Translations under genes and position numbers: made by a program
Part shown: piece after piece, positions 2,114 through 32,551 of the stretch
Position numbering within the stretch: the stretch's first letter is position 1
How the letters are laid out: every line of letters begins with the position of its first letter
The notes under the pieces: generated by a model
What the model was told of the DNA's origin: nothing
Database searches by the model: none
Seen by the model: only the letters and a program-made list of their open reading frames with translations
DNA from: an uncultured Gemmiger sp.
Lineage (GTDB): Bacteria > Bacillota > Clostridia > Oscillospirales > Ruminococcaceae
Reading direction: 5' to 3'
DNA: 39,938 nucleotides
Assembly (NCBI GenBank): GCA_947631565.1
Contig: CANRLV010000016.1
Location: 1 to 39,938 of the forward strand

Positions 2114-2292
2114 GTCTGCCCTGACCGACATGTGCGGGCAGGGCAGACACTGCTAGAGCAAAAATGCCGCAGTAAGTCGCCGCAGGCATGCGCAAGGCAT
2201 TTTTGCGGCGGTGGGGGTACTAAGGGGGAGGTGCAGGCGGACCGGCGCAGCCAGTGACGCCGAACCTCCCCTTTAAAGACGCGCAGCGTCTT
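2114..2292. repeat. Structured intergenic element, copy 1 (type A)
   Basis: First of six copies of a structured repeat. Read on the plus strand it contains: hairpin A, GTCTGCCCTG (2114-2123) with CAGGGCAGAC (2139-2148) around a loop containing GACATGTG; the linker CTAGAG; hairpin B, GCAAAAATGCC (2158-2168) with GGCATTTTTGC (2196-2206); nested hairpin C, GGGGAGGT (2225-2232) with ACCTCCCC (2264-2271) enclosing GGCG/CGCC and a GCA-looped stem; and hairpin D, AAGACGC-GCA-GCGTCTT (2276-2292). Hairpin D ends one base from the spoVT stop; the other end lies about 70 bp upstream of the hrcA promoter. No coding role seen. Confidence 0.9.
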
Positions 2293-2293
2293 C

Positions 2294-2836
2294 TTACGCT
2301 TCCATCCAGCGCGAGAGGAAAGCGGCCGCCAGGCTGACCGCCCGCAGGGTGGCTTCGTCAGGGGCGGCGTCGCGCGGGGTGCCCAGCAGGCAGATACCGC
2401 CCTCGAGGTCGCCGCCGGCCACGATGGGCACGGCGCACAGCAGCTGGCGGTCGCCGCGCTCCAGCGCGCGCACGCGGCGGGCGGGGTCCGCCGGGGCCGT
2501 GTAGGGCCCGCGCATGGCCAGGATCTCTTCCAATTCCCTGGAGACCGTGCGCCCCAGCAGGTCCGCCCTGGCGGGACCGGTGGCGGCCACGACGGCGTCG
2601 CGGTCGCACACCGTGACCGGGCGGCCCAGCGTTTTGGCCAGTACCTCGGCGTAGACGGCGGACAGCTCGCCCAGCTCCGCCATCGGCGAATATTTTTTGA
2701 ACACGACCTCGCCGTCGGCGGCGGTAAAGATCTCCAGCGCGTCGCCCTGGCGGATGCGTTGGGTGCGGCGTATCTCCTTGGGGATGACCACCCGGCCCAG
2801 CTCGTCGATGCGGCGCACGATGCCCGTTGCTTTCAT
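2294..2836 (-). CDS. spoVT: Stage V sporulation protein T, transcriptional regulator
   Basis: SpoVT is a forespore regulator that tunes sigma-G-dependent genes. Residues 1-52 form an AbrB/MazE swapped-hairpin DNA-binding domain (MKATGIVRRIDELGRVVIPKEIRR), and residues 55-178 match the GAF-like C-terminal half (VCDRDAVVAATG, AVPIVAGGDLEGGICLLG). At 180 aa the length fits B. subtilis SpoVT. The GAF half separates it from short AbrB proteins. GGGAGG precedes the ATG. A candidate sigma-G-type promoter lies at 2883-2911, as expected for spoVT. It implies a spore-forming lineage. Confidence 0.92.
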   Translation of the reverse strand: MKATGIVRRIDELGRVVIPKEIRRTQRIRQGDALEIFTAADGEVVFKKYSPMAELGELSAVYAEVLAKTLGRPVTVCDRDAVVAATGPARADLLGRTVSRELEEILAMRGPYTAPADPARRVRALERGDRQLLCAVPIVAGGDLEGGICLLGTPRDAAPDEATLRAVSLAAAFLSRWMEA

Positions 2837-2882
2837 TTTTAAGTTCCTCCCTTTTTTGGCGGTATTTTCCTTGCCATGGGTT

Positions 2883-2911
2883 TAGTGTGCGGCGCGGGTC
2901 CCCAAATATAC
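2883..2911 (-). promoter_or_regulatory. Candidate sigma-G promoter of spoVT
   Basis: On the minus strand GTATA (2907-2911), 17 bases and CACACTA (2883-2889) fit the sigma-G pattern GHATR-N17/18-CATnnTA with one mismatch in the -10. It lies about 50 bases before the spoVT start. spoVT is a known sigma-G gene in Bacillus. The match is short, so this is a proposal. Confidence 0.45.
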
Positions 2912-2912
2912 G

Positions 2913-2941
2913 TTGCCAAACCGGCGCGGCGGGGGTAAAAT
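2913..2941 (+). promoter_or_regulatory. Promoter of the NUDIX gene
   Basis: TTGCCA (2913-2918), 17-bp spacer, TAAAAT (2936-2941). It begins two bases past the outer edge of the spoVT promoter on the other strand. The -10 covers the ATG at 2940, so that ATG cannot be the start of translation. Confidence 0.65.
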
Positions 2942-2963
2942 GGAAAGGCAAGGGGGTGCTTTT

Positions 2964-3509
2964 GTGGCCGAAACACTGCTCGAGACCACGCTGTGCTACA
3001 TCGAGCGCGGCGGGTGCTATCTGCTCATGCACCGTATCAAAAAGGAAAAGGACGTCAATAAAGACAAATGGGTCGGCATCGGCGGCAAATGTGAGTCCGG
3101 CGAGGACGCGCTGGCCTGCGTGCGGCGCGAGGCGCTGGAGGAGACCGGCCTTGTGTTGTCCGCGCCCGCCTACCGCGGCATCGTGGACTTCTATTGCCCG
3201 CCGTGGCCGGCGGAGCGTATGCACCTGTTCACCTGCGCCGAGGGGGCCTGGCAGGGCGACGCCGCGCACCTGCCGGTGTGCCGCGAGGGTACGCTCGAAT
3301 GGGTGCGCATCGACCGCGTTCCCGCGCTGCCCATCTGGGAGGGGGACAGGATCTTTCTGCGTCTGCTGGCCGAAAACGCGCCGTTTTTCCACCTCGAGCT
3401 GCATTATGACGGCGACTGCCTGCAGTCGGCGTGCCTCGATGGGCGGGCGCTCGCCCTGCCGGGGCGGCAGGCGGCAGAAATTTGCCCCGGCCCGGGCATT
3501 TTTGCTTGA
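2964..3509 (+). CDS. NUDIX hydrolase, MutT/8-oxo-dGTPase-like
   Basis: A cytoplasmic pyrophosphohydrolase of the NUDIX superfamily; the substrate is probably an (oxidised) nucleoside triphosphate. The full Nudix box GX5EX7REUXEEXGU is present (GKCESGEDALACVRREALEE followed by TGLV). The fold continues with IVDFYCP and LEWVRID strands. I choose the GTG at 2964 because AGGGGG lies 7 bases before it and the upstream ATG at 2940 overlaps the promoter -10. About 181 aa. The last codons double as an intrinsic terminator, and the TGA lies inside the -35 box of the rpsF promoter. MutT-type repair of the nucleotide pool is likely but not provable from sequence. Confidence 0.85.
   Translation: MAETLLETTLCYIERGGCYLLMHRIKKEKDVNKDKWVGIGGKCESGEDALACVRREALEETGLVLSAPAYRGIVDFYCPPWPAERMHLFTCAEGAWQGDAAHLPVCREGTLEWVRIDRVPALPIWEGDRIFLRLLAENAPFFHLELHYDGDCLQSACLDGRALALPGRQAAEICPGPGIFA
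3483..3503 (+). terminator. Intrinsic terminator inside the end of the NUDIX gene
   Basis: TGCCC-cggccc-GGGCA followed by five T. The hairpin is built from the last sense codons of the NUDIX gene and precedes the rpsF promoter by only a few bases. Confidence 0.6.
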
Positions 3510-3535
3510 CAAGCCGCCATCCCGTTTGCTATAAT
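3506..3535 (+). promoter_or_regulatory. Promoter of rpsF-ssb-rpsR
   Basis: Consensus TTGACA (3506-3511), 18-bp spacer, TGC-TATAAT (3530-3535) with an extended -10. The NUDIX stop codon TGA is contained in the -35 hexamer. Confidence 0.9.
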
Positions 3536-3540
3536 AAATT

Positions 3541-3678
3541 GCTATTTTGGGGCGGTGGCGCCAAAACCGCCGTTCCGGAAAATAAAATAGCTGTCCTTGC
3601 TCCGCCCGTTTCAGCGGCGGGGCCGAACGCGGGGGCCGCAGGGCGCCCGCCAATGTCCAGAAGGAGGTGTACAAAGCA
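3541..3678 (+). promoter_or_regulatory. rpsF 5' leader, candidate S6:S18 autoregulatory RNA
   Basis: A leader of about 138 bases separates the promoter from rpsF. GCTATTTT (3541-3548) pairs with AAAATAGC (3584-3591) and encloses GGCGGT/ACCGCC and an unpaired TTCCGGAA. Leaders of rpsF operons in many bacteria bind the S6:S18 complex through a CCG next to a helix. The position and an available CCG fit, but I cannot confirm the exact fold. Confidence 0.35.
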
Positions 3679-3969
3679 ATGGCCAAGTACGAAACCATGC
3701 TGGTCACCAAGGTCACTGACAATGAGGAAGCCGACAACGCTCTGGTGGAGAAGTTCAAGACCCTTATTGCCGACCACGGGACCATCGATGCCGTGCTGGA
3801 GGGCTGGGGCAAGCGCCGCCTGGCGTACCCCATCCAGGACGAGACCGAAGGCATGTATACGGTGATCCAGTTCACCAGCGGGCCGGATTTCCCGGCGGAG
3901 CTGGAGCGTATCTACGGCATCACCGAGGGCGTGCTGCGCAGCATCGTTGTTGCCATGCCCGAAGAGTAA
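3679..3969 (+). CDS. rpsF: 30S ribosomal protein S6
   Basis: S6 binds the platform of the 30S subunit as a pair with S18, which is encoded in the same operon. The 96-aa protein runs MAKYETMLVTKV to SIVVAMPEE and matches the full ferredoxin-like S6 fold (KYETM strand, WGKRRLAYPI, GIYRITEGVLR-like end GITEGVLRSIVV). The ATG at 3679 follows AAGGAGGT with 10 bases spacing; an in-frame GTG at 3667 is part of that ribosome binding site. First gene of the rpsF-ssb-rpsR operon, the standard Firmicutes order. Confidence 0.97.
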   Translation: MAKYETMLVTKVTDNEEADNALVEKFKTLIADHGTIDAVLEGWGKRRLAYPIQDETEGMYTVIQFTSGPDFPAELERIYGITEGVLRSIVVAMPEE

Positions 3970-3984
3970 GAGAGGATACCAGTT

Positions 3985-4482
3985 ATGCTGAATGTTGTTG
4001 CTATCATGGGCCGCCTGGTGGCGGACCCCCAGCTGCGCCAGACGACCACCGGCCGCAACGTGGCGAGCTTCCGCATCGCGTGTGACCGCAACCGCAAGGG
4101 CCCCGACGGGCAGAACCAGGCCGATTTTATCGACATCGTCGCCTGGGAGCGCACCGCCGAGTTCATCTGCCGCTATTTCCAGAAGGGGAGCCTGATCGCC
4201 ATTGACGGGCGCATCCAGACCCGCAATTATCAGGACAAGAACGGCAACAACCGCACCGCGTTCGAGATCGTGGCCAACAATGTCAATTTTGCCGGGCCCC
4301 GTTCCCAGAATGCCAACAACCAGGGCGCGCAGGGCCAGCAGAGCTATGCGCCCGCCCCCGCGCCCGCCCCGGCAGAGTATGCCCCCCGCCCCATCGAGCA
4401 GCAGGCCCCGGCCGCCAGCTATTCCGCCGGCAGCAATGAGGACTTTGCGCTGATCGAGGACGAGGGCGACCTGCCCTTCTAA
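3985..4482 (+). CDS. ssb: Single-stranded DNA-binding protein
   Basis: SSB coats single-stranded DNA in replication, repair and recombination. Residues 1-105 form the OB fold (MLNVVAIMGRLVADPQLRQT, DFIDIVAWERTAEFICRYFQKG). A low-complexity Pro/Ala/Gln linker (about 106-150) follows, and the protein ends in the acidic tip DEGDLPF that recruits partner proteins. Length 165 aa is typical. It starts 15 bases after rpsF in the same transcript. Confidence 0.97.
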   Translation: MLNVVAIMGRLVADPQLRQTTTGRNVASFRIACDRNRKGPDGQNQADFIDIVAWERTAEFICRYFQKGSLIAIDGRIQTRNYQDKNGNNRTAFEIVANNVNFAGPRSQNANNQGAQGQQSYAPAPAPAPAEYAPRPIEQQAPAASYSAGSNEDFALIEDEGDLPF

Positions 4483-4525
4483 ACCCAAAAAACCTGTTAT
4501 CCCATGATAAAGGAGGGAATCTGCA

Positions 4526-4768
4526 ATGCCCGTGGAACGTACCGGCCGGCCGCTGCACCGCGGCCGCAAAAAGGTCTGCAGCTTCTGCGTTGACCGCATC
4601 AAGCACATCGACTACAAGGATCTGCCCCGCCTGCGCAAATATGTGAGCGAGCGCGCCAAGATCATCCCCCGCCGCGTGACCGGCACCTGCGCCTTCCATC
4701 AGCGTGAGCTGACGGTGGCCATCAAGCGTGCCCGCACGATGGCGCTGATGCCGTATGTGTCAGACTGA
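4526..4768 (+). CDS. rpsR: 30S ribosomal protein S18
   Basis: S18 pairs with S6 on the 30S platform. The 80-aa sequence has the family core [22 protein letters not shown] and [19 protein letters not shown]. Four cysteines or histidines (CSFC near residues 18-21 and CAFH near 54-57) suggest the zinc-binding form of S18. AAAGGAGGG lies 8 bases before the ATG. Last gene of the operon, closed by the terminator at 4781. Confidence 0.97.
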
Positions 4769-4780
4769 GCACCACTGAAA

Positions 4781-4816
4781 AACAGGCTCCGCAAAAATGT
4801 GGAGCCTGTTTTTTGT
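4781..4816. terminator. Bidirectional intrinsic terminator between rpsR and the PASTA gene
   Basis: AACAGGCTCC (4781-4790) pairs perfectly with GGAGCCTGTT (4801-4810). A T-run follows on the plus strand and a run of A precedes, so it can stop both convergent transcripts. Confidence 0.9.
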
Positions 4817-4830
4817 TTGCGCTTTTTTGT

Positions 4831-6408
4831 TTACGGCGCCAGCTGCCCTGCCACAGCCATCTCGACCGTGACCTTGGTGGGGTCGATCTCGCTGCCGGCG
4901 GTGACGCTGGTGGTCACCACCTCGCCGATAAAGGAACCCACAAAGGGGGCGTCGGTGTAGATGTCGTGCTCGACAAAGCGGTACGGGATACCGGCCTCGT
5001 CCAGCAGCTCCTCGACCTCCTCGCGGTCGAGACCGACGACCTCGGGCATCTCGACGAGGCCGATGCCCAGGCTGACCGTGAGCTCGAGCACCTGGTCGTC
5101 CTTTTTCACGGTGCCGGGCATGGGGGTCTGCCGGATGATGACGCCCTGCGGCACCGTTTTGGAGTTCTCCTCGGCCACGATGATGCGATACCCGGCATAG
5201 AGGTCACTGTTTTCCACGTCCTCCCGGTAGTTTTTGCCCACCAGGTTCGGGATGAGCTCGGCGTCGTCCTCCGCCGTGTCGGTCACCGGCAGGGCGGCGG
5301 TTGTATCGGACCCGGCGTCGGCTTCCGGCTCGGCGCCCAGCAGCGCCCACAGCAGCAGCGCCACGGTCACGAACACGGCGGCCAGCGATATCGCCAATAT
5401 CTTTTTGGTGCTGACCTGGTTGTCGCCGCGGTCAAACATCTCGCCGGCCACGCCGGGGTCGGCCAGCGCGCGCTCCAGCTCCGGCACCGTCTGCATACGC
5501 TTGAGCGTGTCCAGCCGCAAAGCGCAGGTCAGCACCTGGGCAAAGTAGACCGGCACGGCGGATTCCAGGCTGTGGGCGGATTCCAGCGTATCGTGCTGGG
5601 TGCGCTGCAAAGCGTGCGGCGGCTTTTGCCCCGTGACCATGCGGTAGACGACCGCCGCCAGCGCGTAGACGTCAGTGTAGGTGCCGGCGAACTCGGCAGC
5701 CGAATACTGCTCCGGCGCCGCGTACCCGGCATAGAGCTGGCTCTTGAGCTCGCTGCCCTGCGTGCGCAGGGCCAGCGTGCCGTACCCGGTCAGGCAGGCC
5801 GGGCCCTCGACGGGCAGCAGGATGTTGTCCGGGCAGATGCCGCGGTGCACAAGCCCCGCCTTGTGCATGGCCATCACGCCGTGCATGACGGGACTGAGCA
5901 GCTCGCAGGCCTCGTTGGGGGCCATCGGCCTGGGCCGCAGCGAGAGGTAATGCGTCAGCGTCATGCCCTTGACGCTTTCCTCCACGGCATAGACGGTGTT
6001 GTTCTCCTCCCAGACGTCCAGGATCTGCGAGAGCCCCTCGGTGGGGCAGATGCCCAGCAGGTCCTCGTACAGGTCCTTGAAGTCCATCAGGCTCGTCTTG
6101 AACAGCACCTCGCGCCCCTCACGCGGGAGCAGGGCGCCGTCGCCGCTGCGCCCGTTGCACAGGGTGACGGGGAAAAACTCCTTGATGCGCACAAAGCGCT
6201 GATGCTCGTTCTCGACGCCCTGGTAGCACAGGCCGTCGCCGTCGCTGGAGAGGTAATCGCCGACGGTATAGCACCCGCCCAGCAGCGTGCCGAATGGCAG
6301 CGCGCCGGCCGGGTTGTTGTTTTCCAGCGAGCGGCCGCAGTGCGGGCAGGTGCCCGGCAGCGGCAGGTCCAGCTGCTGCAGGCAGTGCGGGCAAAGCACA
6401 TGGGGCAC
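4831..6408 (-). CDS. Zinc-ribbon / pseudokinase / PASTA membrane protein
   Basis: A 525-aa protein, GTG start after GGGAGGG. Order: zinc ribbon (CPHC at 6-9 and 21-24); a Hanks-type kinase-like domain (about 45-315) with VRIKEFFP holding the ATP-site lysine near 76 and APEQY at 231-235; one membrane helix (about 337-357); two PASTA domains (about 385-450 and 451-520), which in PrkC/StkP relatives bind muropeptides outside the cell. The catalytic loop reads HRGICPDN instead of HRDxxPxN and the metal site reads LTGYG instead of xxDFG, so both catalytic aspartates are Gly. It probably signals by binding instead of phosphorylation. It appears monocistronic and converges on rpsR. Confidence 0.85.
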   Translation of the reverse strand: MPHVLCPHCLQQLDLPLPGTCPHCGRSLENNNPAGALPFGTLLGGCYTVGDYLSSDGDGLCYQGVENEHQRFVRIKEFFPVTLCNGRSGDGALLPREGREVLFKTSLMDFKDLYEDLLGICPTEGLSQILDVWEENNTVYAVEESVKGMTLTHYLSLRPRPMAPNEACELLSPVMHGVMAMHKAGLVHRGICPDNILLPVEGPACLTGYGTLALRTQGSELKSQLYAGYAAPEQYSAAEFAGTYTDVYALAAVVYRMVTGQKPPHALQRTQHDTLESAHSLESAVPVYFAQVLTCALRLDTLKRMQTVPELERALADPGVAGEMFDRGDNQVSTKKILAISLAAVFVTVALLLWALLGAEPEADAGSDTTAALPVTDTAEDDAELIPNLVGKNYREDVENSDLYAGYRIIVAEENSKTVPQGVIIRQTPMPGTVKKDDQVLELTVSLGIGLVEMPEVVGLDREEVEELLDEAGIPYRFVEHDIYTDAPFVGSFIGEVVTTSVTAGSEIDPTKVTVEMAVAGQLAP

Positions 6409-6457
6409 GGCGCGTTCCCTCCCTTGCGCAAAATTTTGGCGCGGCCGCGCCCGTCAT

Positions 6458-6490
6458 GCAAAGCAGGGGCGCGTGCGGCGTGCCCCTGCA
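6458..6490 (-). terminator. Candidate terminator of yebC
   Basis: On the minus strand GCAGGGGC and GCCCCTGC form an 8-bp stem followed by TTTGC, 30 bases after the yebC stop. The U-run is short, so efficiency is uncertain. Confidence 0.5.
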
Positions 6491-6518
6491 AGGCGGATGC
6501 GGTGTCCCCCGGCCGCCG

Positions 6519-7256: not shown

Positions 7257-7305
7257 AATGTCACCCCTGAGATGGTTCGTTTTGGGAAATGCTCATACAA
7301 AATAC

Positions 7306-7334
7306 AGTATACCACAGCGCCGGGCGATTTTCAA
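7306..7334 (-). promoter_or_regulatory. Promoter of yebC
   Basis: TTGAAA (7329-7334), 17-bp spacer, TATACT (7306-7311) on the minus strand. The -35 covers the cca stop codon at 7331-7333. Confidence 0.75.
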
Positions 7335-8737: not shown

Positions 8738-8770
8738 ACGGGACACCCCCTTTGGGAAGTAAAAAGTAAG

Positions 8771-8786
8771 AGTGAAAAGTGAAAAA
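8771..8786. repeat. Short AGTGAAA direct repeat
   Basis: Two back-to-back units, AGTGAAA-AGTGAAAAA, in the gap between the rsuA-like gene and cca. The same 16 bases recur at 12008-12023 in another gene gap. No function is apparent. Confidence 0.5.
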
Positions 8787-8804
8787 GTCAGCGGAACCTG
8801 TTTT

Positions 8805-9518: not shown

Positions 9519-9619
9519 GCCTGCGCCCCCTTTTTACCGGCTATTGCTATTGTACCATATTTTGTCAACCTTGGGCGGGCATAGTGCGAAAAAATCTTGC
9601 TTTCCAGTGCCGTCGGCCC

Positions 9620-10716: not shown

Positions 10717-10730
10717 CGCACGACAGCATA

Positions 10731-18652: not shown

Positions 18653-18829
18653 ATCGCCATCGGCGGACATGCGCCGGCGATGGCGATACCTCTAGAGCAA
18701 AAATGCCGCAGCAAGTCGCCGCAGGCATGCGCAAGGCATTTTTGCGACGGTGGGGAATCTAAGGGGGAGGTGCAGGCGGACCGGCGCAGCCAGCCGAACC
18801 TCCCTCTTAAAGCCGAGCGCAGCGAGGCT
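18653..18829. repeat. Structured intergenic element, copy 2 (type A)
   Basis: Hairpin A: ATCGCCATCG (18653-18662) with CGATGGCGAT (18678-18687) around GGACATGCG. Hairpin B is GCAAAAATGCC/GGCATTTTTGC as in copy 1. Hairpin C keeps GGAGGT/ACCTCC but lacks four bases (TGAC) in the inner 3' arm. Hairpin D is AGCC...GGCT with the inner GAGCGCAGCGAG, ending on the first base of the glycosyltransferase stop codon. Hairpin A differs from copy 1 at most positions, yet it pairs perfectly. Confidence 0.9.
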
Positions 18830-19863
18830 CAGTTGAATTTAAAGATTTTTTGCGCGAGACGATAGCCGGTGCGGGAGACGGCGCGGCCGCTTTTACCGGG
18901 CAGATAGCACGCCCCCGCCACCGAGAAGATGCAGCGCTTGAACAGGCGTTTGTCGTAGCTGCGCAGCTCGCTCCAAAGGGCCTTGCGCTTTTTGAGGGCC
19001 TCCTCGCTGCCGTCCATGGACAAAAAGATGCTGGAGATGGCCATCATCATGGAAAAGTAGTTGAGCATATAGCGCCGCAGCTTTTTCTGCTCCGGCGGCA
19101 GGGCGTAGACGTCGACGGCGCGCATCATCAGCCGGGTGACGCGCAGCTGCTGGTCGATGCGTTTGATCATGTTCTTCTCGTTGACGCTCTGGTCGTCGCG
19201 CCCGATGAAGTAGCGGTAGAGGTCCAGCGGCATATAGTAGATGGTCTTGACGCTGGGCAGCGGCTGGTAGACGAACAGGTTGTCGACGTAGAACGTGTGC
19301 TTGGGCAGCTCCAGCCCGCAGTCCCGCAGCAGTTGGGTGCGGTAGATGACGCTGTGCATCAGAATGTTCTGGCTGGGCGGGAAGACGCCGATATCCTTCC
19401 AGCCGAACACCCTGTTCTGGGGCAGGATGCCGCGGTAGCCGATGGTGTGGTGGGTGCCGTCGGCCATATGCTCGTATACATAGTTGCACATCAACAGGTC
19501 CAGCGGCGCCTCGCCGGCCTTCTCGGCGGCGGCGAACACGCGCAGGCGGGCCATGACCTGCTGCAGGGCGTCGGCGTCGAGCCAGTCATCGGAATCGACG
19601 ACCTTGAAGTACTCGCCCCTGGCATTGCGGATGCCCTGGTTGACGCCCTCGCCGTGACCGCCGTTCTCCTGGTGGATGACGCGCACCAGCTCCGGGTACT
19701 GCGCGGCGTAGCGGTCGGCGACGGCGCCGGTGTCGTCGGTGGAGCCGTCGTCGACCAGGATGATCTCGGCTTCCTCACCGGCGGGCAGCAGCGTTTCGAT
19801 GCAGCGGTCCATATAGGCGGCGGAATTGTAGCAGGGCACGGTAAAGGTAATGAGCTTTTGCAC
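18829..19863 (-). CDS. Family 2 glycosyltransferase
   Basis: Transfers a sugar from a nucleotide-sugar to a surface polymer or lipid. The GT-A fold is clear: TFTVPCYNSAAYMDRCIETL, then ILVDDGSTDDTG, HQENGGHGEGVNQGI and the metal-binding DSD of FKVVDSDDWLDAD (residues about 95-105). The C-terminal 200 residues carry helices but no clear membrane span, unlike processive synthases. 344 aa; GTG start after GGGAGGAG. It has its own promoter. Neither neighbour is a polysaccharide gene, so the acceptor is unknown. Confidence 0.88.
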   Translation of the reverse strand: MQKLITFTVPCYNSAAYMDRCIETLLPAGEEAEIILVDDGSTDDTGAVADRYAAQYPELVRVIHQENGGHGEGVNQGIRNARGEYFKVVDSDDWLDADALQQVMARLRVFAAAEKAGEAPLDLLMCNYVYEHMADGTHHTIGYRGILPQNRVFGWKDIGVFPPSQNILMHSVIYRTQLLRDCGLELPKHTFYVDNLFVYQPLPSVKTIYYMPLDLYRYFIGRDDQSVNEKNMIKRIDQQLRVTRLMMRAVDVYALPPEQKKLRRYMLNYFSMMMAISSIFLSMDGSEEALKKRKALWSELRSYDKRLFKRCIFSVAGACYLPGKSGRAVSRTGYRLAQKIFKFN

Positions 19864-19898: not shown

Positions 19899-19927
19899 AG
19901 CATACCCGTTTTCGCCGCAAAAAGCAA
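19899..19927 (-). promoter_or_regulatory. Promoter of the glycosyltransferase gene
   Basis: TTGCTT (19922-19927), 17-bp spacer, TATGCT (19899-19904) on the minus strand. The -35 is made from the T-rich tail of the terminator just upstream. Confidence 0.65.
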
Positions 19928-19957
19928 GCGCGCGGCGGAGAAAATCCGCCGCGCGCC
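19914..19957 (-). terminator. Intrinsic terminator between the 38-aa ORF unit and the glycosyltransferase
   Basis: On the minus strand a GC-rich stem GCGCGGCGGA/TCCGCCGCGC closes on a TTTTC loop and is followed by GCTTGCTTTTTG. It ends the transcript that comes through structured element copy 3, so copy 3 would lie in the 3' untranslated region of that transcript. Confidence 0.75.
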
Positions 19958-19989
19958 GCAGGCTGTCAAAAAGGTATGTTTTAAATCTT

Positions 19990-20179
19990 ATCGCCCTCGG
20001 CTGACATGCGCAGACGAGGGCGATACCTCTAGAGCAAAAAATGTCGTTCGAGTCGCCGTCAGGCATGAGAACGATATTTTTTGTGACGGGGTGTGTCCAA
20101 GAGAGGGGTGCAGGCGGATTGGCGCAGCCAGCTTAGCCGAACCCCTCTTTTGCAGCGTGTCGAATTCTTCGACACGCTG
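19990..20179. repeat. Structured intergenic element, copy 3 (type B)
   Basis: Hairpin A: ATCGCCCTCG (19990-19999) with CGAGGGCGAT (20015-20024). Hairpin B is a different, longer stem: GCAAAAAATGTCGTTC with GAACGATATTTTTTGT (20034-20084). The linker reads GTGTGTCCAAGA. Hairpin C uses GAGGGGT/ACCCCTC in place of GGGAGGT/ACCTCCC. Hairpin D is a 12-bp stem CAGCGTGTCGAA/TTCGACACGCTG (20153-20179), 7 bases from the stop codon of the 38-aa ORF. Shares the upstream string CTGTCAAAAA with copy 5. Confidence 0.9.
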
Positions 20180-23871: not shown

Positions 23872-24052
23872 GTCAGACCTGACCGACATGTGCGGGCAGG
23901 TCTGACACCGCTAGAGCAAAAATGCCGCAGCAAGTCGCCGCAGGTATGCGCAAGGCATTTTTGCGACGGTGGGTGTCCAAGAGGGAGGTGCAGGCGGACC
24001 GGCGCAGCCAGTGACGCCGAACCTCCCTTTTGAAGCCGAGCGAAGCGAGGCT
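23872..24052. repeat. Structured intergenic element, copy 4 (type A)
   Basis: Hairpin A: GTCAGACCTG (23872-23881) with CAGGTCTGAC (23897-23906); compared with copy 1 three positions differ in one arm and the partner bases differ with them. Hairpin B GCAAAAATGCC/GGCATTTTTGC. The linker GGTGTCCAAGA is of type B, so this copy is intermediate. Hairpin C GGGAGGT/ACCTCCC. Hairpin D AGCC...GGCT ends on the first base of the recG stop codon. Confidence 0.9.
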
Positions 24053-26094
24053 CAGTTCATGGCTCCGGCGCTGGCAAAAAGCCGTTCCACCTCGTCGGCG
24101 AGCAAGCGGTGCTCGTCGGCGCGCAGCTCAGGGTCGGTCTTGAGCAGGGCTCTGGCCTCCTGCTGGGCCACGCGCAGCGTGCGGGTGTCCTGCACAAGGT
24201 CCGCCACGCGCAGCGTGGGCAGGCCGTGCTGCGCCTGGCCGAAGAAATCGCCGGGGCCGCGGGTCTCGAGGTCATATTTGGCGACCTCGAAGCCGTCCGC
24301 CGTATGGCACAGGAAGCGCAGGCGCTCGCGCACGGCGGGGGTGGGGTTGTCGGAGATCAAAATGCAGCAGCTGTCGGCGGCGCCGCGGCCCACCCGCCCG
24401 CGCAGCTGGTGCAGCGCCGAAAGGCCGAAGCGCTCGGCGTTCTCGACGACCATCACGGTGGCGTTGGGCACATCGACGCCGACCTCGATGACGGTGGTGG
24501 ACACCAGCGCGTCCAGCTCCCCGGCCTTGAACTGCGCCATCACGGCGTCCTTCTCTTTGGGCTTGAGCCTGCCGTGCAAAAGCCCCACCCGGCGCCCCGG
24601 CAGCAGCCTGCAGGCGGTGTCGGTATAATACTTTTTGACCGCCTGCATACCGGCGTCGAGCTCGTTCTCCTCGATGGCCGGGCAGACGATGTAGGCCTGG
24701 TGCCCGGCGTCCATCTGCTTTTGCAGGTAGCCGTACATATCGGCGCGCTTGTGCCCGGTGATGAACCAGGTCTTGATGGGCTTGCGCCCGGGGGGCAGCT
24801 CGTCCAAAATCGAGATATCCAGGTCGCCGTACAGCAAAAGCCCCAGCGTGCGCGGGATGGGCGTGGCGCTCATCACCAGCAGGTGCGGGCTCTGCGCCTT
24901 GCCGGCCAGCAGCCCGCGCTGGCGCACACCGAAGCGGTGCTGCTCGTCGACGACGGCGAGGCCGAGGTTTTTGAACACGACGCTCTCGGTCAGCACGGCG
25001 TGGGTGCCCACGACAAGGCCGGCGCGCCCGTCGGCGATGGCGGAGAGCGCGATGCGGCGCTCGGCGGCTTTCATGCCGCCGACGAGCAGCGTGACGTTGA
25101 TGCCGAACGGCTCCAGCAGGTCGGCCAGCGTGGCGGCGTGCTGGCGGGCCAGGATCTCGGTGGGGGCCAGGATGGCGCTCTGCCAGCCGTTCTGCGCCGC
25201 AAACCAGACGGCCGCGGCCGCGACCAGCGTTTTGCCGCTGCCCACGTCGCCCTGCAGCAGGCGGTTCATCGGCGCGGGGCGGCACAGGTCGGCCGTGATC
25301 TCGCCTGCCGCGCGCAGCTGAGCGCCGGTGGGGCGGTAGGGCAGGCTGCGCCAGAAGGGCCCCAGGTCCAGCGCCCGCATCGGCGCGCCGGTCAGCCGGC
25401 GGCCGTGGCTGCGCAGCAAAAAGATGCCCAGCTGCAAAATATACAGCTCCTCAAAGATCAGGCGGCGGCGGGCGGCGGCAGCCTCGGCCGCGTCGGCCGG
25501 GGCGTGGATGCCGCGCACGGCCTGCGCCCTGGGCGGCATCTTGTAGCGCTCGAGCAAAACGGGCGGCAGCGGGTCCGGCAGGGTGTCGGCGCAGTCCAGC
25601 ACGGCCTGCACGGCGCGGGCGATGCGCCCCGAGGGCAGGCCCTCGGTGGCCGGGTAGACGGCGACCAGCGGCGCCGCCGCCACCTGCGCCTGCGTGCGCA
25701 CGGTGGGGTGGGAGATCTCGCGCCGGGTCATGCTGCCGCCGAAGCGTCCCTCAAAATAATAGGTCTCGCCGACGCGCAGCGCGTCGGCCGCATAGCTGGC
25801 GTTGAACCACGAGAGGGCCAACAGGCCGGTATCGTCGGCGGCCTCGGCCTGCACGAGCACCCGCCCGCCGGTGATGCGCCGGGCCGGCTTTTTGCGCAGC
25901 AGCTGCGCCCTGACGCAGCAGTCGGCGTCATAGGGGGCGGCGGCGATGTCATAGGGTCGGGTATAGTCGATGTAGCGGCGGGGGTAGTGCAGCAGCAGGT
26001 CCTGCACGGTAAAAATGCCCAGTTTGGCAAATTTTTTGGCGAAGGCGGGCCCCACGCCCTTGACGTATTGGATGCTGTCCTCAAGCTTTGGCAC
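24052..26094 (-). CDS. recG: ATP-dependent DNA helicase RecG
   Basis: Remodels stalled replication forks and Holliday junctions. The N-terminal wedge domain (about 1-230) holds SIQYVKGVGPAFAKKFAKLG and an OB fold. The SF2 helicase follows: Walker A LLQGDVGSGKTLVAAAA, motif II VVDEQHRFGVRQR, MSATPIPRTL, and the C-terminal QLRGRVGRGAADSCC. I choose the GTG at 26094 because GGGGGGAGGG ends 6 bases before it; the frame is open 30 bases further to another GTG. About 680 aa. Downstream of yloU-fakA as in other Firmicutes, but separated by element copy 5. Confidence 0.95.
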   Translation of the reverse strand: MPKLEDSIQYVKGVGPAFAKKFAKLGIFTVQDLLLHYPRRYIDYTRPYDIAAAPYDADCCVRAQLLRKKPARRITGGRVLVQAEAADDTGLLALSWFNASYAADALRVGETYYFEGRFGGSMTRREISHPTVRTQAQVAAAPLVAVYPATEGLPSGRIARAVQAVLDCADTLPDPLPPVLLERYKMPPRAQAVRGIHAPADAAEAAAARRRLIFEELYILQLGIFLLRSHGRRLTGAPMRALDLGPFWRSLPYRPTGAQLRAAGEITADLCRPAPMNRLLQGDVGSGKTLVAAAAVWFAAQNGWQSAILAPTEILARQHAATLADLLEPFGINVTLLVGGMKAAERRIALSAIADGRAGLVVGTHAVLTESVVFKNLGLAVVDEQHRFGVRQRGLLAGKAQSPHLLVMSATPIPRTLGLLLYGDLDISILDELPPGRKPIKTWFITGHKRADMYGYLQKQMDAGHQAYIVCPAIEENELDAGMQAVKKYYTDTACRLLPGRRVGLLHGRLKPKEKDAVMAQFKAGELDALVSTTVIEVGVDVPNATVMVVENAERFGLSALHQLRGRVGRGAADSCCILISDNPTPAVRERLRFLCHTADGFEVAKYDLETRGPGDFFGQAQHGLPTLRVADLVQDTRTLRVAQQEARALLKTDPELRADEHRLLADEVERLFASAGAMN

Positions 26095-26125
26095 GCGGCG
26101 CCCTCCCCCCTGTGTAAAGGTCACG

Positions 26126-26146
26126 GGCCGGTTGGACCCGGCCCGT
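26126..26146. repeat. 21-bp direct repeat flanking element copy 5, left unit
   Basis: GGCCGGTTGGACCCGGCCCG plus T. An exact second unit lies at 26371-26391, so copy 5 and about 30 extra bases sit between two identical 21-mers. With adjoining bases this unit forms CGGGCCGG/CCGGCCCG (8-bp hairpin), just upstream of recG. Confidence 0.85.
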
Positions 26147-26177
26147 CAGACTGTCAAAAAAGAACTATTTCAAATCC

Positions 26178-26367
26178 ATCGTTCTCGGCGGACATGCGCC
26201 GACGAGGACGATACCTCTAGAGCAAAAGATGTCGTTCGAGTCGCCTTTACGCATGAGAACGATATCTTTTGCGACGGGGTGTGTCCAAGAGAGGGGTGCA
26301 GGCGGACCGGCGCAGCCAGTGACGCCGAACCCCTCTTTTGCAGCGTGTCGAATCTTTCGACACGCTG
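26178..26367. repeat. Structured intergenic element, copy 5 (type B)
   Basis: Hairpin A: ATCGTTCTCG (26178-26187) with CGAGGACGAT (26203-26212), one G-U pair. Hairpin B: GCAAAAGATGTCGTTC with GAACGATATCTTTTGC (26222-26271). Hairpin C: GAGGGGT/ACCCCTC. Hairpin D: 12-bp CAGCGTGTCGAA/TTCGACACGCTG (26341-26367). It is the only copy whose hairpin D does not touch a stop codon: fakA ends 45 bases further, with a 21-bp repeat unit in between. Confidence 0.9.
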
Positions 26368-26370
26368 ACA

Positions 26371-26391
26371 GGCCGGTTGGACCCGGCCCGT
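26371..26391. repeat. 21-bp direct repeat flanking element copy 5, right unit
   Basis: Exact repeat of 26126-26146, placed between hairpin D of element copy 5 and the fakA stop codon. It may be a duplicated terminator-like hairpin or a target duplication. Confidence 0.85.
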
Positions 26392-26412
26392 GGGAATGTG
26401 TTTTTGCCTGCC

Positions 26413-28107: not shown

Positions 28108-28145
28108 ATCTTTCAACACCTCATTGATGAGTTTTTCACGGCCTG

Positions 28146-28499
28146 TCACAGCGAGAGGATGTCGTCGACGAACACGTCGACGCATTCCACCTTGAGACCG
28201 GTGGCGTGCTCCACCTCGTCGCGCACACGGTGGGTGATGCTCTGGGTGATGGTCTTGATATTGAGCCCGTACCCAACCATGATGTGCAGCACGATGTGCA
28301 GCTGGCGGCCGTTCTCGATCACGGTCACGCCCTGCTCCGGCAGGCGGCCGTGCTTGAGCGCCGTGCGCACGTCGTGCCCGGTGGGGTTCTGCCCCATGGC
28401 GGCGATGCCGTAGCACTGCGCGGCGGCGTGGGCGGCCAGCGCCGTGAGGTAATCATTGGTCAGCGAGATGTGGCCGTAAGGATTCACCTTGGTGATCAT
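28146..28499 (-). CDS. yloU: Asp23/Gls24 family protein (YloU)
   Basis: A small alkaline-shock-type protein of 117 aa, often linked to envelope stress or lipid metabolism; biochemical role unknown. It has the family pattern GHISLTNDYLTALAAHAA, YGIAAMG and a C-terminal VRDEVEHATGLKVECVDVFV. AAGGAGG lies 6 bases before the ATG. First gene of yloU-fakA, possibly reading into recG. Confidence 0.9.
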   Translation of the reverse strand: MITKVNPYGHISLTNDYLTALAAHAAAQCYGIAAMGQNPTGHDVRTALKHGRLPEQGVTVIENGRQLHIVLHIMVGYGLNIKTITQSITHRVRDEVEHATGLKVECVDVFVDDILSL

Positions 28500-28554
28500 G
28501 CGTTTCCTCCTTCTGCCGGGCCAGACGGACCCAGGCGGCGGTCATGTACAGTAC

Positions 28555-28583
28555 ATTATACACCATTTTGCACCGTTTGAACA
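28555..28583 (-). promoter_or_regulatory. Promoter of yloU-fakA
   Basis: TGTTCA (28578-28583), 17-bp spacer, consensus TATAAT (28555-28560) on the minus strand. The -35 is poor, but the -10 and spacing are good. Confidence 0.65.
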
Positions 28584-28722
28584 GTGGTAAAATACAAAAC
28601 CGCCCCCGTTGTTTTTTGGGCAGACTGCCGGCGGAAAATTCACAAACCATTCACAAACTCCCTACCGGTATCTGCTATACTGATTTTAGGCAAAACGCAC
28701 AAACGCAAATGGGGTTTTGAGC

Positions 28723-29178
28723 ATGAATTTGTTGTTTTTCCTGACGCCCAAGCAGGATGTTCTGTTTATCTACGAGGATTTTACCCTGCGCCAGGCACTG
28801 GAAAAGTGGGCCAACCAGCGCTACGCGACCATCCCCATCCTGCGCCGCAGCGGCGAGTATGTGGGCACCATCAGCGAGGGGGACCTGCTGTGGGGCATCA
28901 AAAACCTGGCCGCCGACGGTACCGGCTTTGAGGATGTGCCCATCGCCAGGCTGCCCCGCCGCAGGGACTATAAGGCCGTGCCGGTCACCACCGACATGAC
29001 GGCGCTGCTGCGCGGGGTGCTCGATCAGAACTTTGTGCCGGTGGTCGATGACCGCAACGTGTTCATCGGCATCGTGCGCCGCACCTCGGTGCTGGATTAC
29101 GTCTACCGCAACTTTGACCACGAGGAGCTGGTGCGCAAACCGCCCCGGCCCAAAAAGGCGGCGCAGACGCAGATGTAA
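28723..29178 (+). CDS. CBS domain protein
   Basis: 151 aa made of two CBS motifs (about 10-60 and 75-130) that form a Bateman module, which usually senses adenine nucleotides or c-di-AMP. Visible signatures: TLRQALEKWANQRYATIPIL, YVGTISEGDLLWGI, TALLRGVLDQNFVPVVDD and FIGIVRRTSVLDYV. No attached enzyme or transporter domain. A basic tail RKPPRPKKAAQ ends it. The ATG at 28723 has only a weak GGGG upstream. Transcribed alone, opposite to yloU, with a strong terminator. Confidence 0.86.
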   Translation: MNLLFFLTPKQDVLFIYEDFTLRQALEKWANQRYATIPILRRSGEYVGTISEGDLLWGIKNLAADGTGFEDVPIARLPRRRDYKAVPVTTDMTALLRGVLDQNFVPVVDDRNVFIGIVRRTSVLDYVYRNFDHEELVRKPPRPKKAAQTQM

Positions 29179-29188
29179 GATTTGGAAA

Positions 29189-29226
29189 ATCCGGGGCGCA
29201 TACCGCGCCCCGGATCTTTGTTTTGG
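29189..29226. terminator. Terminator between the CBS gene and the symporter gene
   Basis: ATCCGGGGCGC pairs with GCGCCCCGGAT, followed by CTTTGTTTTG on the plus strand and flanked by AAAA on the other side, so it can serve both convergent genes. Confidence 0.85.
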
Positions 29227-29234
29227 TGAGCGTC

Positions 29235-30740
29235 TCAGGCGTTCTCTGTCTCCAGGCCGACCTCTTCCTCCGCCTGGACATCGTCAAAGACGGAGAGCAT
29301 GGGCTTGACATCCTTGTGGCGCATACGGCGGTCGACGTAGTTTTGGGTGATGCGCATGACGACGGGCGACAGCGCCAGCACGCCGATGAGGTTGGGCATG
29401 GCCATCAGACCGTTGAAGGTATCGGACAGGTCCCACGCGAGCTGCATCTTCATGGTGGCGCCGAAGATGATGAACGCCACGAAGACGATCTTGTAGTACA
29501 TGGTGGACTTCTCGCCGAAGAGGTACTCAAAGGCGGTGGAGCCGTAGTGGCTCCAGCCCAGCACGGTGGAGAAAGCGAAGAGCAGGATGGCGAGGGCGAT
29601 GAACATCGGCCCGATGGCGCCGAAGGTCTGGGCCAGCGCCTCGCCGACGAGGGCGGAATCCTCGACGTTGGCAAGCACGGCGCCGGTGTCGAGGTCGACG
29701 AGACCGGAGGTGAGCACGGTCAGTGCGGTCAGCGTGCAGACGACGATGGTGTCGGCAAAGACCTCAAAGATGCCCCACATCCCCTGGCGCACCGGCTCGC
29801 GCACGTTGGAGCTGGAATGCACCATGACCGAGGAGCCGAGGCCCGCCTCGTTGGAGAAGACACCGCGCTTCATGCCCCAGGTCAGCGCCATCTTGACGCC
29901 GCTGCCGACGATGCCGCCGGCCACGGCCTGCATACCGAAAGCGCCCTTGAAGATGGCCACGAAGGCGGGACCGATGCGCCCGGCGTTGAACACGCAGGCG
30001 ATGACGGTGCCCACCACATAGGCGATGGCCATGAAGGGGACGAGCTTTTCGGTGACGGCGGCAATGCGCTTGAGCCCGCCGATGAGCACCAACCCGGCCA
30101 CGACCATGAGCACGAAGCCGGTGACCACGGCCGGGATGCCGAAGGCGGCGGTCATGTTGCCGGCGATGGAGTTGATCTGGCTCATGTTGCCGATGCCGAA
30201 GGAGGCCATCAGGCAGAAGATGCTGAACAGCACGGCCAGCACGGCGCCGACCTGCTTCATGCCCTTTTTGCCGCCCAGGCCGTCGCGCAGGTAGTACATG
30301 GCGCCGCCCTGCCAGGCGCCGGCGCTGTCACGCCGGCGGTAAAAGATGCCCAAAACATTCTCGGAATAGTTGGTCATCATGCCGAAGAAGGCGACGATCC
30401 ACATCCAGAAGATGGCGCCGGGGCCGCCGGTCATGATGGCGGTGGCCACGCCGACGATGTTGCCGGTGCCGATGGTGGCGGCCAGCGCCGTGCACAGCGA
30501 CTGGAACTGCGAGATGGCGGCGTCGCTTTTGGCGGTGTGGGCGGTGATGTGCCTGTCGGTGAAGACCGAGCCGATGGTGTTCTTCATCCAGTAACCGAAG
30601 TGGCTGATCTGGAAGAATTTGGTCAGGCAGCTCATCAGGATGCCGGTGCCGACCAGCATGATCAGCATGGGGATGCCCCACACAAAGCTGTTGACCGCGC
30701 CGTTGACGGAAGCGACGGTATCGACGAACGCTTCAAACAT
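29235..30740 (-). CDS. Sodium:alanine symporter (AGCS family)
   Basis: A polytopic membrane protein of 501 aa, about 11 helices, importing alanine or glycine with sodium. Family motifs: GTGNIVGVATAIMTGGPGAIFWMW, here split as IGTGNIVGVATAIMTGGPGA and IFWMWIVAFFG; NYSENVLGIFYR; GAMYYLRDGLG; and FSNEAGLGSS, which carries the conserved substrate-site Asn. AGGGGAGAGG lies before the ATG. The 5' leader is about 145 bases. Monocistronic. Confidence 0.94.
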   Translation of the reverse strand: MFEAFVDTVASVNGAVNSFVWGIPMLIMLVGTGILMSCLTKFFQISHFGYWMKNTIGSVFTDRHITAHTAKSDAAISQFQSLCTALAATIGTGNIVGVATAIMTGGPGAIFWMWIVAFFGMMTNYSENVLGIFYRRRDSAGAWQGGAMYYLRDGLGGKKGMKQVGAVLAVLFSIFCLMASFGIGNMSQINSIAGNMTAAFGIPAVVTGFVLMVVAGLVLIGGLKRIAAVTEKLVPFMAIAYVVGTVIACVFNAGRIGPAFVAIFKGAFGMQAVAGGIVGSGVKMALTWGMKRGVFSNEAGLGSSVMVHSSSNVREPVRQGMWGIFEVFADTIVVCTLTALTVLTSGLVDLDTGAVLANVEDSALVGEALAQTFGAIGPMFIALAILLFAFSTVLGWSHYGSTAFEYLFGEKSTMYYKIVFVAFIIFGATMKMQLAWDLSDTFNGLMAMPNLIGVLALSPVVMRITQNYVDRRMRHKDVKPMLSVFDDVQAEEEVGLETENA

Positions 30741-30892
30741 AGATTCCTCTCCCCTTTTGCCCGTTCCTGTGTTGCGGGCGCAGTAAACTTATTCGCCGTT
30801 TACAGCAAAAATGCGAGGGGCAGCCCGTCCGCCTTTGTATCGGCCGGTCCTGCGCCCTCACACCGTTGTGAGCAGGCAAACAGTACATCTCT

Positions 30893-30920
30893 ATTGTAGC
30901 CGCGCGGGCGCCGATGTCAA
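30893..30920 (-). promoter_or_regulatory. Promoter of the symporter gene
   Basis: TTGACA (30915-30920), 16-bp spacer, TACAAT (30893-30898) on the minus strand. Confidence 0.75.
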
Positions 30921-30985
30921 GACTTTCGCAGGATTTTTGTTGGCGCCGTACATACGTTTGTGCGTGCATGGAAAACATTTTGTGC

Positions 30986-31041
30986 GTTTTGCACGCCGGG
31001 CTATGCCCGGCGCTTGCCCTGTGTACAGGGCAAGGCAAAAC
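30986..31041. other. Perfect 56-nt three-way-junction sequence
   Basis: Three stems meet with a single unpaired junction base: outer GTTTTGC (30986-30992) with GCAAAAC (31035-31041); arm 1 CGCCGGGC-TAT-GCCCGGCG (30994-31012); arm 2 CTTGCCCTG-TGTA-CAGGGCAAG (31013-31034). All 24 pairs are Watson-Crick. It lies in the 443-base gap between the rplL terminator and the symporter promoter and is explained by neither. The rest of that gap has a GAGCG/CAGCG-rich stretch (31045-31077) and no ORF I can support. Function unknown. Confidence 0.7.
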
Positions 31042-31130
31042 CGGCCGGAGCGCAGCGCAGCGGAGCGAGAGCCGTACCGAAATCGGCCAGTGCGCGCACG
31101 CGCATCATAGGCGAGGTGCTCGACTTATAC

Positions 31131-31161
31131 AAAAAGCGGTCCCCGGTGGGGACCGCTTTTT
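31131..31161. terminator. Terminator of rplJ-rplL
   Basis: AAAAAGCGGTCCCC/GGGGACCGCTTTTT with a 3-base loop, about 20 bases after the rplL stop; a U-run exists on both strands. Confidence 0.92.
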
Positions 31162-31183
31162 GTATGGCAGTTGCTTCCTGCAC

Positions 31184-31564
31184 TTATTTGAGCTCGATCT
31201 TGGCGCCGACCTCTTCCAGCTTCTTCTGGATCTCCTCGGCCTCGGCCTTGGAGACGCCCTCCTTGATCTTGGCCTCGGGGGTCTCGACCAGCTTCTTGGC
31301 ATCCATCAGGGAAGCGCCGGTGATCTCCTTGGTGACCTTGATGACCTGCATCTTCTGGGCGCCGACCTCTTTCAGGATGACGTCGAACTCGGTCTTCTCC
31401 TCCTCAGCGGGGGCAGCGCCGGCGGCGGCGACGGCGGGGCCGGCAGCAGCGGCCACGGCGGAAACGCCGAACTCCTCGCAGATGGTGTCAACGAGCTCCT
31501 TGAGCTCCAGGACGGTCATCGACTTGACAGAGTCGATGATGGCAGTGATTTTTTCAGAAGCCAT
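31184..31564 (-). CDS. rplL: 50S ribosomal protein L7/L12
   Basis: The multi-copy stalk protein that recruits translation factors to the ribosome. 126 aa: N-terminal dimer/L10-binding domain ([20 protein letters not shown]), an Ala-rich hinge ([19 protein letters not shown]) and the C-terminal globular domain ending in [15 protein letters not shown] before the ATG. Last gene of rplJ-rplL. Confidence 0.97.
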
Positions 31565-31646
31565 GATGATTTTACCTCCATATCATGTCATTTGTCGGGT
31601 GCGGCCGGCAAATTTTCAGGCCGCAAAGGGTGTGGGCAGGTTCTGT

Positions 31647-32159
31647 TTACGCAGCTTCGCTTTCGCGCTTTTCAAGCAGCTCGTTGAGGCTGACGGCCAG
31701 ACCGCCGATGATGCCGTTGAGCGAGCCGGCCAGCATGGAAAGCAGGCCCTCGCGGTTGGGCATGGTGGACAGCTCCTTGACGCCGGCGGCGTCGAGCACC
31801 TGACCGTCGCAGAAGCCGCCCTTGACGGCAAAACGCTTGGAACGGTCAGCGTCGGCATACTTGCACAGGATGCGGGCGGCGGCAGAGGGGTCGTCGGCCG
31901 AGACGGCAATGGCGGTATCGCCCTTGAACAGGTCGGTCAGGCTTTCGAGCGCCGTGCCCTTGACAGCCAGGCGGAGCATGGTGTTCTTCACGACCATATA
32001 CTCGACCCCGGCCTCGCGCAGCTCACGGCGCAGCTTGGTGTCGTTGGCCACATTGATGCCGTTGTACGACACGACCACCCCGGCCAGCGAGCCCTGCAGC
32101 TTGGCGGACAGGTCCGCCACGAACGCCTTTTTGGTCTCGAGGATTTTGGCACTGGGCAT
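31647..32159 (-). CDS. rplJ: 50S ribosomal protein L10
   Basis: L10 anchors L7/L12 dimers to 23S rRNA at the stalk base and normally represses its own operon by binding the leader. 170 aa. Recognisable parts: ILETKKAFVADLSAKLQGSL, VVVSYNGINV, REAGVEYMVVKNTMLRLA and the C-terminal L12-binding helix around SLNELLEKRE. GAGGTG lies before the ATG. Preceded by a leader with attenuator-type terminator at 32201-32236. Confidence 0.97.
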   Translation of the reverse strand: MPSAKILETKKAFVADLSAKLQGSLAGVVVSYNGINVANDTKLRRELREAGVEYMVVKNTMLRLAVKGTALESLTDLFKGDTAIAVSADDPSAAARILCKYADADRSKRFAVKGGFCDGQVLDAAGVKELSTMPNREGLLSMLAGSLNGIIGGLAVSLNELLEKRESEAA

Positions 32160-32200
32160 TTTTTGGTTTCACCTCGTTTCTGTTGGGAAAGTCTTGGTCG

Positions 32201-32331
32201 AAAAAGGCCGATCCCCCGTTTCCGAGAGATCGGCCTGCAACGCATTACAACGTATAAAAGGCGGTTTCTCGGCAGGCGGGGTGACCCTTTACGCTTGGTT
32301 AAGCACCTGCTGTCTTAAAAACAGCAACCAG
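32201..32331 (-). promoter_or_regulatory. rplJ leader with attenuator terminator (L10 leader-type)
   Basis: About 165 bases lie between the rplJ promoter and start codon. Near the end GGCCGATC and GATCGGCC (32206-32213 and 32228-32235) form a stem followed by TTTTTC on the minus strand, a terminator before the gene. The upstream part includes GGTGCTTAACCAAGCG and other pairings. Position and layout match the L10(L12)4 autoregulatory leader of Firmicutes. Confidence 0.7.
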
Positions 32332-32360
32332 AGTATACCGCACGGCGGCGGATTTGTCAA
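32332..32360 (-). promoter_or_regulatory. Promoter of rplJ-rplL
   Basis: Consensus TTGACA (32355-32360), 17-bp spacer, TATACT (32332-32337) on the minus strand. It starts 11 bases from the edge of element copy 6. Confidence 0.9.
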
Positions 32361-32371
32361 GCATTAAATCC

Positions 32372-32551
32372 ATCGGCATTGACCGACATGTGCGGGCAAT
32401 GCCGATACCGCTAGAGCAAAAATGCCGCAGCAAGTCGCCCGTAGGGCATACGCAAGGCATTTTTGCGACGGTGGGGAATCTAAGGGGGAGGTGCAGGCGG
32501 ACCGGCGCAGCCAGTGACGCCGAACCTCCCTCTTAAAGCCCGCAGGGCTTT
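32372..32551. repeat. Structured intergenic element, copy 6 (type A)
   Basis: Hairpin A: ATCGGCATTG (32372-32381) with CAATGCCGAT (32397-32406), a fourth distinct stem sequence. Hairpin B GCAAAAATGCC/GGCATTTTTGC with a longer loop (CCCGTAGGGCATA). Hairpin C GGGAGGT/ACCTCCC. Hairpin D AAAGCCC-GCA-GGGCTTT (32535-32551) directly abuts the rplA stop codon. It separates rplK-rplA from the rplJ promoter. Confidence 0.9.

Follow-up and report, generated by a model that had tools for sequence, protein, structure and literature searches.

IS1272, a member of the IS1182 family, targets the hairpins of transcription terminators and deletes part of them without making a duplication, and both IS1272 and TnSha1 take hairpin and terminator targets that share no sequence consensus (consulted parts of PMC4923244 and PMC5678879). 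In form, the closest analogues of the element described here are the pneumococcal repeats SPRITE, BOX and RUP, which are small, interspersed, intergenic, structured as RNA and proposed to be miniature inverted-repeat transposable elements (MITEs), BOX being modular and SPRITE terminator-like (PMC3049150, in part). Prokaryotic MITEs, as presented in the consulted portion of the review PMC10969869, are short, have inverted ends, flanking repeats and a predicted stably folded transcript, and are described as AT-rich and as going to AT-rich sites. The present analysis concerns an intergenic hairpin element with six copies in a window of 39,938 nt, i.e. positions 1 to 39,938 (forward strand) of contig CANRLV010000016.1 from an uncultured Gemmiger sp., together with its relatives across the genus; the source genome (G000) is a draft of 2.47 Mb in 140 contigs, 89% complete. 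The element consists of the hairpins A (35 nt), B (~60 nt, outer stem), C (long, containing GTGCAGGCGG and GCGCAGCCAG) and, at the terminus, D. Most likely it is a small mobile DNA of Gemmiger that inserts at the transcription terminators of genes. Specifically, it is interpreted here, from sequence comparison, as a non-autonomous MITE that would be moved in trans by IS1182-family transposases and would target terminator hairpins, with a probability of roughly 0.7.

The mobile nature of the element is well supported, given its ends, flanking duplications, empty sites and IS1182 relatives. Complete copies measure mostly 220-222 bp (type I) or ~230 bp (type II) and run from CAGACTGTCRAAAA to CGACACGCTG, terminal inverted repeats of the kind that characterizes MITEs; they are composed of the left end CAGACTGTCRAAAAA, hairpins A-B-C and the terminal hairpin AGCGTGTCGA..TCGACACGCT(G), and, again as in MITEs, they are too short for a transposase gene and are present in many copies. 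The left-end motif was found in 8 of 10 genomes (8 occurrences in G000, 20 in G044, 80 in G017 and 26 in G047, none in G004 and G042), while its backward control was found in none of the ten. Direct flanking repeats of 12-36 bp, corresponding to the target site duplications of MITEs, accompany 25 of 50 end pairs as compared with 2 of 972 permuted pairs of flanks from different loci. One mismatch per end was allowed in assembling these 50 pairs, of which L063 and L096, at least, have a right end in common and a few others (e.g. L132, L159) could be spurious. The distance to each of the two ends is at most 10 bases for 24 of the 25 repeats and at most 3 for 17; by kind the repeats belong to 13/29 type I, 2/6 type II and 10/15 other pairs, the kinds being set by simple patterns that count L128, L137 and L054 as 'other' though these are type II-like in length. 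A stem of at least 5 is contained in 18 of the 25 repeats, and a stem of at least 7 in 38/50 right and 36/50 left flanks, in comparison with 518/2000 random 45-mers and 122/500 shuffled flanks.

Presence or absence of the element at orthologous sites, judged by eye, varies among species. At 29189-29215 the window has a single terminator-like hairpin, whereas at this site G044 has the element flanked on either side by a copy of a similar hairpin; in two relatives the element occupies a place at which the window shows a terminator-like hairpin by itself. The same ends also occur on elements with unrelated interiors, some of them situated between hairpin copies. Such short elements with the same ends were seen in G047 (L160, L181, L188) and G017 (L149:10939-11090); their unrelated interiors are often palindromic (e.g. 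GTAGGGGCGGG...CCCCTAC), and some stand between duplicated terminator hairpins.

A candidate transposase source with matching ends, as expected for a MITE, is IS1182, whose ends were recognised in G000, in G017 and in viral contigs; the ends of IS1182-type transposase genes in Gemmiger resemble those of the MITE. In L189 and L190 a hairpin stands before the insertion-sequence ends CAGACTGTCGAGAAA, in L192 a different IS1182 end is placed ahead of a hairpin, and one in G017 likewise. The left end CAGACTGTCGAAAAAG of L205, an IMG/VR sequence holding an IS1182 element with both ends, is identical at 16/16 positions to copies of the MITE, and in six viral-contig relatives every right end is directly adjacent to an inverted repeat, weakly so in L210 (adjacency judged by eye). 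PF13751 was detected at four places and PF01609 at two in G000, and neither in five relatives; the best protein, half-length and at a contig end, fits the IS1182 model NF033551 over its second half with 227.4 bits, the full-length cut-off being 270. For IS1182, ISfinder gives direct repeats of 0-60 bp. Taken on these sequence features, it is very probable that the element is a MITE and probable that its mobility stems from IS1182.

As for mechanism, IS1182-family DDE transposases would recognise CAGACTGTCRAAAA at the A end and TCGACACGCTG at the D end, thus presumably mobilising the element in trans, and would choose an intrinsic terminator hairpin as target. A staggered cut around the base of that hairpin could then leave a copy of it on each side of the insertion, where the duplications are observed. 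The A-B-C interior would be a structured cargo in which stems are kept matched and loops are kept by sequence, and hairpins B and C, which are bordered at the base by A/T tracts, may act as built-in terminators, so that landing in a terminator would cause no read-through. Copies adjacent to stop codons would be ones that no longer possess transposon ends and are now fixed as 3' elements.

The Gemmiger element thus shares hairpin and terminator targeting with IS1272. In contrast to published IS1272, which deletes or replaces the target inverted repeat, it often duplicates the hairpin (in 25 of the 50 end pairs), an outcome not reported for IS1272 in the consulted parts of PMC4923244 or PMC5678879; it also differs in lacking a transposase and in having a structured cargo, the comparison being by published description. 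From the pneumococcal repeats, likewise compared by description, it differs in genus and in its terminator-hairpin duplication, none being described in the consulted part of PMC3049150. It departs from usual MITEs in its terminator-hairpin targets and in its G+C content of 0.54-0.67 (98 near-complete matches, at least 100 bits), so that it is not AT-rich, although AT-richness is usual and not defining for MITEs. A word search of the main text of PMC10969869 gave no mention of IS1182. In the open-access literature no account was found of Gemmiger intergenic hairpin repeats, nothing relevant on palindromic intergenic repeats of Faecalibacterium prausnitzii, and no account of hairpin target duplication by IS1182 or of IS1182 MITEs at terminators, absence there being not the same as absence in print. 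New are the hairpin duplication, the two divergent types with one architecture, the apparent exchange of whole hairpins and the class adjacent to stop codons. With many parallel natural insertions, the targeting of terminators by a transposon becomes directly readable.

The A-B-C core gave 61 covariance-model matches in G000, where 150 of 2446 first-look candidates were scored with the model. In the genus survey, with at most 47 candidates scored per genome and filters stricter than in the G000 count, matches were obtained in 28/35 genomes of the genus and in 0/26 outside it. The 23-base loop pattern of hairpin C was found in 60 stretches of genome contigs, 47 of which are labelled as Gemmiger (42) or as Subdoligranulum (5); 13 further stretches (Ralstonia, Rubrivivax, Dokdonella, Salipiger and others) were regarded as chance occurrences and left out of later counts, and exact matches to this pattern in viral contigs numbered 0. 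Type II, present in G002, G007, G010 and others, has the same ends, the same order A-B-C and a similar A with different B and C, which no longer align with those of type I (by eye), and some of its copies have a flanking duplication (25 bp in L128). A second structured module of ~60 nt with the core GGCCTAAGAGCC...GGTTGGCC occupies the hairpin A loop in a number of genomes, inserted either way round (L038:1465-1690, L016, L037, L097 and the type II copy L179), and looks like another hairpin-seeking repeat; it has 11 matches in G000, three of them weak, and the two weak ones examined lie outside hairpin A (L045, L046). In L034 (2442-2493 and 2901-3015) and L027 hairpin C is swapped for another module (TTTATAGTCCGCGTTCGCGGAC...), and in L034 a piece of hairpin C is found ~400 bp away on the opposite strand, perhaps by inversion between elements.

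Genes were called with our own hexamer script, and all 103 copies fall outside the called genes. Thirty-seven are located between two gene ends and 2 between two gene starts; between in-line genes, 36 have the C end and 14 the A end towards the stop, and 14 copies have no called gene on one side. Copies bearing the terminal transposon hairpin occur in both orientations. A stop-proximal class, recognized by the linker GGTGGG and devoid of the terminal transposon hairpin, has its C end facing the stop codon in 18/18 cases, at a distance of -3 to 19 nt, and lacks terminal inverted repeats. Four of the six window copies belong to it, at spoVT-like, glycosyltransferase, recG-like and rplA genes, and at the sites of two of these a relative has remnants of hairpin A. 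Stop-proximal copies are presumably older copies whose transposon ends have been lost, and could show how, in a gut bacterium, a mobile element is turned into the fixed 3' end of a host gene. Hairpin B has an A run and a T run around it, each of at least 4, in 90/98 copies, and it is this feature, along with the placement, that favours a built-in terminator role, which is judged from sequence to have somewhat less than an even chance. Such a role would keep the insertion harmless and may benefit the host. A mini-transposon interior with RNA-like covariation is a test case for mobile elements that carry terminators in order to stay harmless.

The initial annotation had proposed selection on base pairing, with both arms of each stem changing together every time. 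In an alignment of 33 G000 copies (A1) not fitted to structure, from which 3 of 43 matches had been dropped beforehand and 7 more left out for want of a complete hairpin A, two-sided changes were found in 18/48 predicted pairs. The genus-wide set of 103 distinct copies (114 matches, 100 sources) was aligned by fitting to the structure, which favours structure; in it 98.0% of stem cells were paired vs 86.8% in shuffled alignments and at most 52.2% with partners slid, 37/48 pairs had two-sided changes vs 18.4 in shuffles, two-sided cells numbered 461 vs 112, and the covariation score was 0.312 vs 0.118, a level reached by 0/500 shuffles. Selection on pairing thus withstood the larger set; the concerted change of both arms is true of hairpin A in the six window copies and does not extend to that set, and several G017 copies share a common mismatch in hairpin A, contrary to strict matching. 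Loops and linkers are conserved in sequence while stems vary. The hairpin A loop GACATGYGC alternates with GGCATGTAC or GGCGTGTAC (L025, L036, L008, L012), a swap of A..G to G..A as if a purine-purine pair were preserved.

Whole hairpins seem to be swapped as units between copies. The likely exchange is deduced from L003 and L008, which have one difference outside hairpin A and four matched pairs inside it, and from mixed combinations of modules: A type AC is combined with three B types, as is A type GG, and short B with both linkers, in a crude module sort that left 51/97 rows not fully classed. Since L003 and L008 differ by four matched pairs within A, copies are not independent, and the compensatory appearance is partly due to whole-hairpin exchange.

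Several observations weigh against the interpretation as an IS1182-driven, terminator-carrying MITE. An exact flanking repeat of at least 12 is missing in 25 of the 50 end pairs, and at L116 two different hairpins flank the element. All four viral IS1182 elements with a readable left end have different hairpins on either side and no duplication, and inside Gemmiger no IS1182 with both ends was seen, only one end per copy. Transposase and copy number do not go together: PF13751 is present in 1/6 genomes, and a protein search returned relatives in 6/35 genomes of the genus, several of them weak or broken, G016 and G021 having a transposase match and zero element copies and the copy-rich G044, G012 and G007 having none, an absence that is weak evidence because repeats are poorly held in draft assemblies. 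A terminator scan restricted to loops of 3-8 flagged no A-B-C hairpin on the A-to-D strand. In the stop-proximal class this better-folding strand runs antisense to the gene at whose stop the copy lies, an arrangement that a plain 3'-UTR terminator would not lead one to expect. Strict matching of the two arms is in turn contradicted by close copies (at most 6 differences elsewhere), between which two-sided changes numbered 79 vs 232 one-sided or unpaired ones in hairpin A, a count inflated by copies with an interrupted A, and 9 vs 39 in hairpin C; in hairpin B they were about even (43 vs 40).

Two of the alternatives bear on the terminator role, and each may hold together with the mobile-element interpretation. 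It is rather unlikely that the element is primarily a multi-copy noncoding RNA made from the A-to-D strand, whose conserved loops bind a partner and for which mobility is a mere route of spreading. The sequence conservation of loops and linkers would suit it, as would an excess of G-U over A-C on that strand, amounting to 99 vs 37 cells with two G-U-majority pairs excluded (the copies being related, the cells are not independent) and recurring in each of four groups (137:14, 42:5, 43:5 and 13:1, helix 6 dropped and G-U-majority pairs included). The A-to-D strand is, moreover, more stable than its complement in 96/98 copies, on average by 10.8 kcal/mol. Against such an RNA, no conserved -35/-10 promoter was found before hairpin A in 17 rows of the stop-proximal class, only ~10 bp (TTTTAAATCC) being conserved there, and Rfam has no match on the window copies: the window gave 0 matches at gathering threshold and six weak ones when the limit was relaxed to E = 5, none on a copy. 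The initial annotation had likewise named no known family; of the two options that it offered, structured mobile DNA is well supported by ends, flanking duplications, empty sites and IS1182 relatives, the strand asymmetry giving hints of the other, a noncoding RNA.

A DNA parasite with no RNA function, whose stems are matched by template switching between arms and by exchange of whole hairpins, is unlikely. It would account for near-identical copies that differ by entire matched hairpins, for A types combining with several B and linker types in the crude sort, for the prevalence of one-sided changes in A and C of close copies and for the mismatched hairpin A of several G017 copies; however, arm copying alone leaves both the conserved loops and the excess of G-U on one strand unexplained. 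Ordinary strong intrinsic terminators, immobile and inherited by descent, would be expected at gene 3' ends, where the element nearly always lies, but are very improbable in view of the transposon ends, flanking duplications, sites with and without the element and identical ends on unrelated interiors.

An extension of the MITE interpretation, put forward tentatively, is that in a transposon family there has arisen a structured RNA cargo of at least two types, under one-strand selection across Gemmiger; this cargo might terminate or insulate transcription at landing sites or act in trans, with end-less copies fixed next to the stop codons of housekeeping genes such as rplA and recG and a transposase that duplicates whole terminator hairpins.

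Re-reading of the window sequence located its six copies, all on the forward strand, exactly where the initial annotation had placed them, with the arms of hairpin A as quoted and paired in 6/6 (by eye). Two of these copies were folded and gave z = -5.98 and -8.93 vs dinucleotide shuffles. The proposed common order A-B-C-D is correct for A-B-C in all six; it fails for D, the terminal hairpins of the six copies being not homologous, since copies 19990 and 26178 have AGCGTGTCGA..TCGACACGCT and the other four short, differing hairpins. With six copies per 40 kb as against 61 per 2.47 Mb the window is more densely occupied than the genome average, but it was picked for its copies.

Both complete copies of the mobile class in the window, each of 221 bp, are absent from aligned relatives (by eye). 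The first (copy 3, 19959-20179) comprises the left end, A-B-C (19990-20153) and AGCGTGTCGA..TCGACACGCT and is missing from 5/5 relatives; a strong terminator-like hairpin at 19927-19957 on the reverse strand abuts its left end, and no exact flanking duplication was found, the longest shared stretch being 6. The second (copy 5, 26147-26367), with the ends CAGACTGTCAAAAA...CGACACGCTG, is missing from 7/7 relatives and lies between two forward-strand copies of a 21-bp duplication, the hairpin GGCCGGTTGGACCCGGCCCGT, at 26126-26146 and 26371-26391.

The remaining four copies are stop-proximal. Copy 1 (2114-2292) has A, B and C at 2114-2276 followed by a short terminal hairpin, and the stop codon of the spoVT-like gene (2294-2836, reverse strand) is 2 nt away. 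In copy 2 (18653-18829) the terminal hairpin touches the stop of the glycosyltransferase gene (18829-19863, reverse strand); in an alignment with five relatives here, G017 retains a fragment of hairpin A and the other four none (by eye). Copy 4 (23872-24052) is located where the recG-like gene (24052-26124, reverse strand) stops, and is missing from 7/7 aligned relatives (by eye). Copy 6 (32372-32551) adjoins rplA (32552-33244, reverse strand), and of seven relatives aligned here one, G044, retains a decayed hairpin A and nothing else of the copy, the other six nothing at all (by eye). Between copy 6 and rplJ (31647-32159, reverse strand) there is a promoter-like site on the reverse strand (-35 from 32360, -10 to 32332). 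Directly after copy 6 and before rplJ, a sub-threshold match to the L10 leader is found at 32191-32337 on the reverse strand, with 35.8 bits against a gathering threshold of 44.

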